Positions 42,254 to 44,685 of a stretch of DNA of 64,000 bases are shown one piece after another. The notes below the pieces were generated by a model. It was not told the origin of the DNA and did not search any database. It worked only from the letters and a program-made list of their open reading frames with translations. The DNA comes from Phaeobacter inhibens DSM 16374 (GTDB taxonomy: Bacteria > Pseudomonadota > Alphaproteobacteria > Rhodobacterales > Rhodobacteraceae). Within the stretch, counting starts at the first letter, position 1; each line of letters starts with the position of its first letter. The stretch spans positions 2,636,009 through 2,700,008 of the forward strand of contig NZ_KI421498.1 of NCBI RefSeq assembly GCF_000473105.1, read 5' to 3'. Both the position numbers and the translations under genes were made by a program.

Positions 42254-42919
42254 TTAATGCCCCTTTGCGAAAGGCGCTGCATCCCCCCAAAGCTGCAACA
42301 CGCGGGCGTCACGCCCACAGGCCTTTCGATAGCGCTTATAGGCTTCCGACTGACGTTTGGGGCCAAAACGCGTGAGAACCAGTTTGCGACCCTTGTAGTA
42401 GTCCTGATGATAAGCCTCGGCAGGGTAGAAAGCGGTCGCTGGCAGAATTGGCGTGACGATGGTTTGGCCGAGTGCGGATTGCGCCTCGGATTTGGCGGCC
42501 TTGGCGACAGATGTCTGATCCGCGCCGGAAGTGAAAATGGCCGTCCTATAGCTGTCGCCGCGGTCACAGAACTGACCACCTGCGTCGGTGGGGTCGACCG
42601 AGCGCAGGAACATCGACAACAGCTGCCCGCGCGTCACCTTGGTCGGATCAAACCGGATCTGGACCGCCTCATAGTGACCGGTGCCACCGGCGGTGACCTG
42701 TTTGTAGGTGGGCGATTTGGTGCTGCCACCCGTGTAGCCGGATACTGCCGAGAGCACGCCAGGGACGCTTTCGAAATCACTCTCAACACACCAGAAACAG
42801 CCGCCGGCGACGGTCAGGGTTTCAACATTCTGGGCGTGGGCCTGATGTCCTTTCAGCGCCACGGCCAGCAGCATGAACAGGGTCAGGACAATTGGTCTTG
42901 CTGTGTTTGTCGAACGCAT
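42254..42919 (-). CDS. msrA: Peptide methionine sulfoxide reductase MsrA, exported
   Basis: Reduces methionine-S-sulfoxide. An N-terminal signal (IVLTLFMLLAVALKGHQAHAQ) precedes the catalytic GCFWCVESDF at about 40-49, with C41 nucleophile; GYTGGSTKSPTY and HYEAVQI follow. 221 residues. The chosen Met has GGAGG 5 bases before it. An exported MsrA suggests repair of periplasmic proteins. No msrB is adjacent. Confidence 0.92.
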   Translation of the reverse strand: MRSTNTARPIVLTLFMLLAVALKGHQAHAQNVETLTVAGGCFWCVESDFESVPGVLSAVSGYTGGSTKSPTYKQVTAGGTGHYEAVQIRFDPTKVTRGQLLSMFLRSVDPTDAGGQFCDRGDSYRTAIFTSGADQTSVAKAAKSEAQSALGQTIVTPILPATAFYPAEAYHQDYYKGRKLVLTRFGPKRQSEAYKRYRKACGRDARVLQLWGDAAPFAKGH

Positions 42920-43063
42920 CATCGCCTCCATCGTTGCGCTACATTGGCCCGAGGGTTGTTCAGGCTCAATCACATGACATGGTTTGTCACGGCTTGGTGA
43001 CGGGAAGTTACCGCTTGGAAATAGGATCCAATCCTTCTAGCGTGCGCCTCGCAGGAGGAGCAG

Positions 43064-43972
43064 ATGACCGAAAAAATGAGCACGCATCAAGCGCAGGAAG
43101 ATCAGCGCAACGAAGAGATCCTGATCTATCTGAATGGTGAGATTGTTCCCAAAGCCGAGGCCAAGGTCAGCGTCTATGACAGCGGTTTCATGCTGGGGGA
43201 TGGTGTCTGGGAGGGGCTGCGGCTGTACAACGGGACCTGGGCGTTCATTGATGAACATCTCGACCGCTTGTTTGAGGCTGCGAAGACCATTGATCTGGAC
43301 ATCGGGATGGACCGAGATCAGGTCAAACAAGCTGTTTTAGACACACAAAACGCCAATGACATGATCAGCGATGCCCATGCGCGCCTGATGGTCACGCGTG
43401 GGGTTAAAACCCGCCCGTTCCAGCATCCATCGCTGTCGCAGCAGGGGCCGACGTTCACCATTATCATGGAGCATTCGCGCCCAAACCTGCCGCGCCCGAT
43501 CCGGTTGGCGACAGTGCCACATCTGCGCGGGTTGCCGATGACACAGGATCCGAAGCTGAATTCACATTCCAAGCTGAACTGCATTCTGGCCTGTATCGCG
43601 GCGGAGAAAGCGGGCGCCGATGAGGGGCTGATGCTGGACGTGAATGGGTTCGTGAATACGACCAATGCCTGTAATTTTTTCATCGTGCGCAAGGGGGCGG
43701 TTTGGACCTCGACCGGTGACTATTGCATGAACGGGATTACCCGGCAGAAGGTCATCGACCTGTGCCGCGCCAATGATATTCCGGTGTTTGAGCGCAACTA
43801 CTCCCTGGTGGATACCTACGGCGCTGATGAGGCGTTTCTGACCGGCACCTTTGGGGCACAGACACCGGTGGGTGATATCGATGGGCGGCAGATTGGTGAT
43901 GGCGAGATGGGGCCGGTGACCAAGCGTTTGCGTGCGCTGTACAAGGATCTGATCGCGCAGGAGTGTGCCTGA
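43064..43972 (+). CDS. Class IV (BCAT-like) PLP-dependent aminotransferase homologue with altered PLP site
   Basis: A 302-residue fold-type IV PLP protein. YLNGEIVPKAEAKVSVYDSGFMLGDGVWEGLR starts the family pattern, and the PLP lysine is probably K170 in NSHSKLN. The usual motif G-x-V-x-E-(4)-N reads GFVNTTNACN, so the Glu that contacts the PLP pyridine nitrogen is a Thr (about T199). That suggests non-standard PLP chemistry. Its TGA overlaps the ATG of a sulfotransferase-like gene. Substrate unknown; ilvE, D-amino acid aminotransferase and pabC are the nearest known families. Confidence 0.8.
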   Translation: MTEKMSTHQAQEDQRNEEILIYLNGEIVPKAEAKVSVYDSGFMLGDGVWEGLRLYNGTWAFIDEHLDRLFEAAKTIDLDIGMDRDQVKQAVLDTQNANDMISDAHARLMVTRGVKTRPFQHPSLSQQGPTFTIIMEHSRPNLPRPIRLATVPHLRGLPMTQDPKLNSHSKLNCILACIAAEKAGADEGLMLDVNGFVNTTNACNFFIVRKGAVWTSTGDYCMNGITRQKVIDLCRANDIPVFERNYSLVDTYGADEAFLTGTFGAQTPVGDIDGRQIGDGEMGPVTKRLRALYKDLIAQECA

Positions 43973-44685
43973 TGCGGATTGCCATGTGGTCAGGGCCACG
44001 CAACCTGTCGACTGCAATGATGTATGCCTTTGGCAATCGCGGCGATTGCGCTGTGGTGGATGAGCCCTTTTATGCGGCCTATCTGGCGCAGACCGGTCTG
44101 GAGCATCCCATGCGTGCCGATATTCTGGAAAGTCAGTCCAGAGACGCTGAGGTTGTCGCCGCGTCCCTAATGGGGCCTGTGCCTGCTGCAAAACCGTTTT
44201 TCTATCAAAAACATATGACTCAGCATATGATTGACGGAATACCGCGCGACTGGATGCGCGAGGTCACAAATGTGTTTCTGATCCGCCATCCGGCGCGGGT
44301 CATTGCCTCATATGCCGAGAAACGGGAAAATCCTACGTTGGATGATATTGGGTTTCGCCAGCAGGCTGAGCTGTTTGATCTGGTGAAACGCTGGGATCAG
44401 GCGCCGGTGGTGGTGGATAGCGATGATATCCGCAGCGATCCTGCAATGGTGTTGGAGCGGCTCTGTGAGAGACTTGGCATACCGTTTTCCCCGAAGATGC
44501 TATCATGGCCAATGGGGGGACATAAGGACGATGGCATCTGGGCGGCGCATTGGTACGGGTCTGTCTGGCAGTCGACCAAATTTGCAGGACCCGAGGGGCC
44601 GTTGCCTGAAGTGCCTGCAACCTTGCAGCCGGTTCTTGAGGCCGCTTTGCCCTACTATGAACGATTGAAAGCGCAGAAAATCTGA
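43972..44685 (+). CDS. Sulfotransferase-like P-loop protein
   Basis: A 237-residue protein. The P-loop-like PAPS site is WSGPRNLSTAMMYAF (about 6-20), and the 3'-phosphate site is VFLIRHPARVIASY (about 101-114), both as in sulfotransferases. It overlaps the class IV aminotransferase by one base (TGATG), so the two are made together. I recall that plants carry a fusion of these two domains, which would support a shared function. Actual substrate unknown. Confidence 0.75.
   Translation: MRIAMWSGPRNLSTAMMYAFGNRGDCAVVDEPFYAAYLAQTGLEHPMRADILESQSRDAEVVAASLMGPVPAAKPFFYQKHMTQHMIDGIPRDWMREVTNVFLIRHPARVIASYAEKRENPTLDDIGFRQQAELFDLVKRWDQAPVVVDSDDIRSDPAMVLERLCERLGIPFSPKMLSWPMGGHKDDGIWAAHWYGSVWQSTKFAGPEGPLPEVPATLQPVLEAALPYYERLKAQKI

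Follow-up and report, generated by a model that had tools for sequence, protein, structure and literature searches.

The window analyzed here is a stretch of 64,000 nucleotides from Phaeobacter inhibens DSM 16374, and it contains a pair of genes encoding a protein with a class IV aminotransferase fold (here referred to as AT) and a putative sulfotransferase (here referred to as ST) (Table 1). The earlier note on this DNA had stated that the two genes overlap by one base, and the motif joining the AT stop codon to the ST start codon bears this out. The sequence AGGAGG (43053-43058) lies upstream of the AT start and AGGAG (43959-43963) upstream of the ST start, for which the open reading frame list also offers an alternative GTG at 43963. 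Among the 72 loci in which the spacing was measurable, out of 78 named loci with both genes, AT and ST overlap by 1 or 4 bases in 51, so the one-base overlap is not accidental; in 4 of the 72, the genes are separated by 673 to 1129 bases. Judging from the sequence, the TGATG motif may couple translation of ST to that of AT. The adjacent MsrA gene, present in 48 of 80 named loci, is used here as a marker of synteny; it probably has no share in what the pair does.

Table 1. Features of the AT-ST locus, with positions given in the window
Feature	Position	Strand	Basis
MsrA, divergent neighbor, synteny marker	42254..42973	-	Domain match
AT, fold of class IV aminotransferases, catalytic lysine absent, 302 aa	43064..43972	+	PF01063
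Asn166 codon (aat), place of the Schiff-base lysine, within KLNSHSKLN	43559..43561	+	Alignment including 7z79 and 9j32
Thr199 codon (acg), place of the PLP N1 Glu, within GFVNTTN	43658..43660	+	Alignment
TGATG, AT stop/ST start with one shared base	43970..43974	+	Sequence
ST, Sulfotransfer_5 (PF19798) with SGPRNLST loop and RHPARVIASY motif, 237 aa	43972..44685	+	Pfam

Active site of the aminotransferase-like protein

AT matches PF01063 with 130.3 bits against a cut-off of 28.5, and 18 NCBIfam models also match it, all of them below their curated cut-offs (the best, PRK08320, with 236 of 363 bits). The predicted model of AT (pLDDT of 80.6, poor at residues 162 to 169) matched BCAT and DAAT entries in Foldseek. 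The phosphate-binding cup of the fold is retained (Arg68, Thr226, and Gly261-Thr262), while alignment places Asn166 at the position of the Schiff-base lysine. GFVNTTN of AT is aligned with GFVAEGT of lysine-bearing relatives, so that Thr199 replaces the Glu, and Lys/Arg170 occupies a column in which several transaminases carry a Tyr at the PLP O3'. Neither the Asn166 nor the Lys/Arg170 change was part of the earlier note. Residue roles were carried to the AT numbering by alignment from two transaminase sites, as given in excerpts of the respective papers: K158, Y162, and E194 with the phosphate-side residues R61, T223, and T260 (PMC12429042), and K143, Y147, and E176 with R52, T203, and T239 (PMC8401098). 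These correspond to Asn166, Lys170, and Thr199 and to Arg68, Thr226, and Thr262 of AT. The O3' Tyr is typical of BCATs and absent from some D-amino acid transaminases according to the excerpt of PMC8401098, and its loss at position 170 therefore weighs less than the other changes.

No Glu supplied from another position, which the earlier note had named as an observation that would speak against its reading, was seen in the AT alignment. We also considered a replacement lysine from elsewhere in the protein, for which the alignment offers no invariant lysine column. The nearest candidates are K115 (147 of 149 clade rows, with R in 2) and K/R170 (125 K and 24 R), either of which may still be suitably placed in space, given the weakness of the AT model at residues 162 to 169. 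We rejected AT as an ordinary transaminase because the lysine is missing. On the basis of these residues, AT is almost certainly no canonical transaminase, and canonical transamination by it is very unlikely. The earlier note had predicted chemistry other than plain transamination from the loss of the Glu; this prediction now has a stronger foundation, since the Schiff-base lysine is missing as well.

Conservation of the altered site

The AT alignment comprised 157 distinct sequences, of which 149, with at least 44% identity to AT of the window, make up the AT clade; the other 8, at most 36% identical, fall outside it. Eighty of the 149 clade rows were fetched by peptide patterns that demand T or S at site 199; having been kept as the best 80 among 574 confirmed matches, they are close kin, and because the pattern itself demands T/S, they are no evidence for site 199. 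N166, K/R170, T/S199, R68, T226, G261, and T/S262 are each present in 149/149 clade rows, and in the rows chosen without a pattern, N166, K/R170, T/S199, Arg68, Thr226, and Gly261 are found in 69/69. A further 82 of 82 loci, among which some genomes recur, agree at the sites checked, T/S199 included, and the Thr that the earlier note had read at the Glu position thus stands. S169 and N201, like N166, are found in all 149 clade rows and H168 in 147. The eight outside rows have E at 199 in every case and K at 166 in seven (a gap in the eighth); at site 170, in a column that is hard to align, they have Y (2), N (3), L (2), or a gap (1). Within the clade, sites 170 and 199 covary, with K accompanying T or R accompanying S in 68 of the 69 pattern-free rows, a pattern that may reflect phylogeny.

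Four pairs of genes gave dN/dS values of 0.03 to 0.07 for AT and 0.08 to 0.11 for ST, which are rough estimates because dS exceeds 1 in three of the pairs. The low dN/dS led us to reject AT as a decaying pseudogene. Clade-wide conservation, together with low dN/dS in both genes, indicates that the change to the active site is old and maintained rather than a product of decay.

This conservation also bears on whether AT might still be a transaminase that works without the lysine, either slowly or with the aid of an external amine. The retained fold and phosphate site are compatible with such an enzyme, and a K145N mutant of D-amino acid transaminase reportedly works without its lysine (we did not find the report among openly licensed papers). 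However, the Glu is gone too, conservation this strict is hardly to be expected of a slow relic, and the P. inhibens genome itself encodes four other PF01063 proteins, all of which make this reading highly improbable. The phosphate cup might instead hold a ligand other than a B6 compound and support chemistry unrelated to PLP, given that only the phosphate side is kept and that the ring-side Lys and Glu are both replaced. We consider this doubtful, as no neighboring gene suggests another ligand and as PDB entry 9j32, a relative of AT, is titled 'mutant N174K', a title which suggests that restored PLP binding was being tested.

The sulfotransferase partner

ST matches PF19798 with 292.6 bits, far above the cut-off, and no NCBIfam model matches it. 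The SGPRN.ST loop, R105, S113, Y78, K80, and H85 are invariant in 21/21 aligned ST sequences; we take the loop and R105/S113 to be the PAPS-binding 5'-phosphosulfate loop and the 3'-phosphate Arg/Ser motif, respectively. The predicted model of ST has a pLDDT of 91.3, and all 18 of its Foldseek matches at an E value of ≤0.001 are sulfotransferases, with the CurM domain first and StaL among them. The CurM domain sulfates a hydroxyl, turning it into a leaving group. The fold matches are weak (TM-scores on the query of 0.36 to 0.55 and rmsd of 7 to 16), and with TM-scores this low, the likeness of ST to CurM is to be read as kinship of fold and not of function.

A match to APS kinase in the P. inhibens genome itself makes a supply of PAPS plausible in this organism. 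Across the family sample described below, an APS kinase match was present in 147 of 159 genomes, being absent from 8 of 107 ST-bearing genomes (several of them incomplete) and from 4 of 52 without ST. We therefore rejected PAPS supply as the reason for the presence of ST: APS kinase does not distinguish ST-bearing genomes from the rest, and 8 of the 12 genomes lacking a match hold ST.

PF19798 appears in a table of one paper, the excerpt of which gives no function for the pair, and the word sulfotransferase is absent from PMC9309667. Distant PF19798-like sulfotransferases with 30% identity to ST occur on a Dolichospermum plasmid (L209) and a Streptomyces plasmid (L221), where they are surrounded by peptide-synthetase genes, with an APS kinase gene close by.

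Co-occurrence and linkage of the two genes

In a family sample of 159 genomes, 105 carry both genes, 5 carry AT only, 2 carry ST only, and 47 carry neither. Of the 105 genomes with both, 74 have the two genes side by side and 31 have them apart; the earlier note had held that unlinked genes in most relatives would count against a functional pair, and this is not what we observed. When the 74 linked genomes are set aside, the remaining counts (31, 5, 2, and 47) give an odds ratio of 146, which overstates independence because the genomes are related. A class sample of 289 genomes comprised 26 with both genes, 10 with AT only, 1 with ST only, and 252 with neither. For this sample, 42 genomes matched AT at an E value of 1e-42 or better, of which 36 were kept as clade members and 6 were discarded for an identity of no more than 37%; ST was strong in 27 genomes, and a weak partial match in G538 was dropped. 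In a phylum sample, from which matches of ≤37% identity were left out, the AT clade was found in 25 of 299 genomes, with ST inside the 1.5-kb flank in 16 of the 25 and anywhere in the genome in 22. ST in the sampled genomes is thus almost confined to those that carry this AT. The ST-only genomes (G836, G910, and G344), taken together with G538, hold eight class IV relatives, all with E199 and with K (6), R (1), or a gap (1) at position 166.

The order and linkage of the genes vary. Both are present in 78 of 80 named loci; the two exceptions, L124 and L144, are cut off by a contig end right behind AT. The order is swapped, with ST preceding AT, in L061, L062, L079 to L081, and L168. On a FastTree tree of 116 AT rows, with 48 weak inner branches out of 113 and a long branch for L189, the state 'ST adjacent' changes nine times, and at least five of these changes are forced by starred branches. 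Among 16 loci that have ST without AT, MsrA is still beside ST in six (L196, L198, L200, L202, L292, and L293); five of these six genomes have an AT elsewhere, and none was found in the genome of L292 (G910). This suggests that AT departed from the MsrA-ST locus and that a second AT took over. A separate observation concerns L161, a gammaproteobacterial record from Alteromonas aestuariivivens with a roseobacter-like AT-ST pair (77% identity), which is either a recent transfer or a contaminated contig.

Since the genes co-occur even where they are unlinked, appear in swapped order, and have changed their linkage repeatedly on the tree, we hold a shared pathway of AT and ST to be highly probable, in line with the earlier note's suggestion that the pair may act on one substrate. 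AT does not need ST, because ST is absent from 5 of 110 AT-bearing family genomes and 10 of 36 AT-bearing class genomes. These genomes are what could be cited for the two genes being chance neighbors without a common function, but the strong co-occurrence of unlinked genes, the swapped order in some lineages, and the several changes of linkage leave that explanation barely credible.

AT loci without a nearby sulfotransferase

We compared 75 AT loci without ST to 101 loci of the AT-ST type, in 99 of which ST itself was seen. A binding protein of a polar amino-acid ABC importer, of one of two types, was present in 29 of the 75 ST-less loci and in none of the 101 AT-ST-type loci; the other 46 ST-less loci had no importer binding protein. 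Several annotated loci combine a GntR regulator, the importer, and AT, others have the importer and AT without a listed GntR gene, and some were assigned by similarity only. The importer is divergent from AT in one annotated locus. In five loci (L169, L206, L208, L212, and L220), an operon comprises the ABC importer, AT, a ClC-type channel, and a ProC-like reductase; operons of this type mostly have a GntR regulator and are often plasmid borne. A short annotated ClC piece was also seen in L207, and L205 has a related ClC gene a short distance of a few genes away from AT. An ornithine cyclodeaminase gene is beside AT in one annotated ST-less locus, and MmgE/PrpD-family genes are beside ST-less ATs in L173, L210, L211, and L213 and, by eye, in L195. 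Some ST-less ATs adjoin TRAP transporters, and one adjoins neither an ABC nor a TRAP system.

Choline-sulfatase-like genes lie near ST-less ATs in L215, L218, L181, L271, and L305. A sulfatase was counted in 5 of 75 ST-less loci and 0 of 101 AT-ST loci (P = 0.013), a weak enrichment among loci that are related and differ in flank size; for this count, L204 and L263 are one plasmid, and weaker matches in L270 and L273 (31 to 32%) were excluded. In Yoonia, the sulfatase is 4 kb from AT, beside other transporter genes. The choline-sulfatase-like gene of Mameliella overlaps AT by 4 bases, and the genes that follow it resemble a hydroxyproline pathway. Solved-structure relatives of two of the binding proteins name no ligand. 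Overall, the neighboring genes speak for an amino compound as what AT acts on, though for no single one.

In annotated loci, AT lies directly 3' of the importer ATPase gene. This placement would suit a pseudoenzyme with an amino acid or a phosphate compound as its ligand and a role as sensor or scaffold, for ST in the loci described above and for a transporter or catabolic operon elsewhere. The joint loss of Lys and Glu fits such a role, and pseudoenzymes often pair with an active partner. On the other hand, the remodeled site (N166, H168, S169, and N201) is strictly kept, and the presence of AT beside very different genes (ST, ABC, and TRAP) is easier to reconcile with an enzyme than with a dedicated subunit. 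We thus regard a pseudoenzyme as unlikely and AT as probably catalytic rather than a binding protein.

Proposed function

We lean toward the view that the pair is a conserved metabolic module of two proteins in which AT handles an amino compound and ST sulfonates that compound or a derivative of it. In such a module, AT would not use the canonical internal-aldimine mechanism. It would bind a phosphate-bearing ligand, whether PLP, PMP, or a PLP-substrate adduct, held noncovalently, would bind the amino compound together with this ligand, and would then act on the amino compound. ST would move sulfate from PAPS to the compound of AT, its product, or its precursor. In some relatives without ST in cis, AT may handle an amino compound that is imported by the ABC importer.

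For the chemistry of AT itself, the version that we favor is a speculative one with a low probability: ST sulfates a hydroxyl of the amino compound, and AT, as a lysine-free PLP or PMP enzyme, expels the sulfate. The elimination product would be an enamine or imine that is then hydrolyzed or reduced. In relatives, AT might act on imported amino acids that already bear a leaving group, such as a halide or sulfate; imports of this kind would account for the ClC channels, the choline-sulfatase-like genes, and the ProC/ornithine-cyclodeaminase imine reductases beside AT. An AT of this kind would be, to our knowledge, the first enzyme of PLP fold type IV found to work in nature without the lysine.

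A Schiff-base lysine is the defining feature of PLP enzymes. A large clade without it, in which the Lys and Glu have been replaced in concert and the substituting residues are strictly maintained, would represent a new mechanism that dispenses with the lysine or else a new class of proteins that bind ligands. Its ties to a sulfotransferase and, in other loci, to importers of amino acids offer a direct way to the AT substrate. Database records name members of the clade transaminases (for example, 'D-amino acid aminotransferase' on a Paracoccus plasmid), an annotation that is very likely wrong.

Comparison with known systems

The earlier note had put the pair forward as its strongest candidate for undescribed biology. 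Among openly licensed papers, we found none linking a lysine-less AT to a sulfotransferase or to importers, no usable precedent for the AT chemistry, and no function or paper for PDB entries 7z79 and 9j32. The word undescribed nevertheless has to be qualified, since the lysine-less state was already visible in these two entries. Both are Variovorax paradoxus entries named 'Aminotransferase, class 4', 9j32 being the N174K mutant of 7z79, and are the closest PDB sequences to AT, with 48 to 49% identity and the same fold (E value of 1.3e-86 with full-length homology for 7z79). Like AT, 7z79 has an Asn at the Schiff-base lysine position, and it has a Ser where AT has Thr at the Glu position.

Plants have proteins that fuse BCAT-like and sulfotransferase-like domains, as the earlier note remarked, and it had named a lack of fused homologues as an outcome that would count against its reading. 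No AT-ST fusion was found in 113 prokaryotic locus entries with both genes, in which some genomes occur twice, or in 33 others, and two Arabidopsis locus names returned nothing from the openly licensed literature.

With IlvE and DAAT (e.g., 5cm0 and 1daa), AT shares the fold, the PF01063 domain, and the phosphate-binding Arg, Thr, and Gly-Thr; in contrast to these enzymes, it has neither the catalytic Lys nor the N1 Glu. Relatives of the BCAT/DAAT type have 27 to 39% identity to AT in the Foldseek list and no more than 36% in the outside rows of the alignment. The sulfotransferase domains of CurM and olefin synthase (4gbm and 4gox) are 17 to 19% identical to ST, and whereas these are domains, ST is a compact, free-standing protein.
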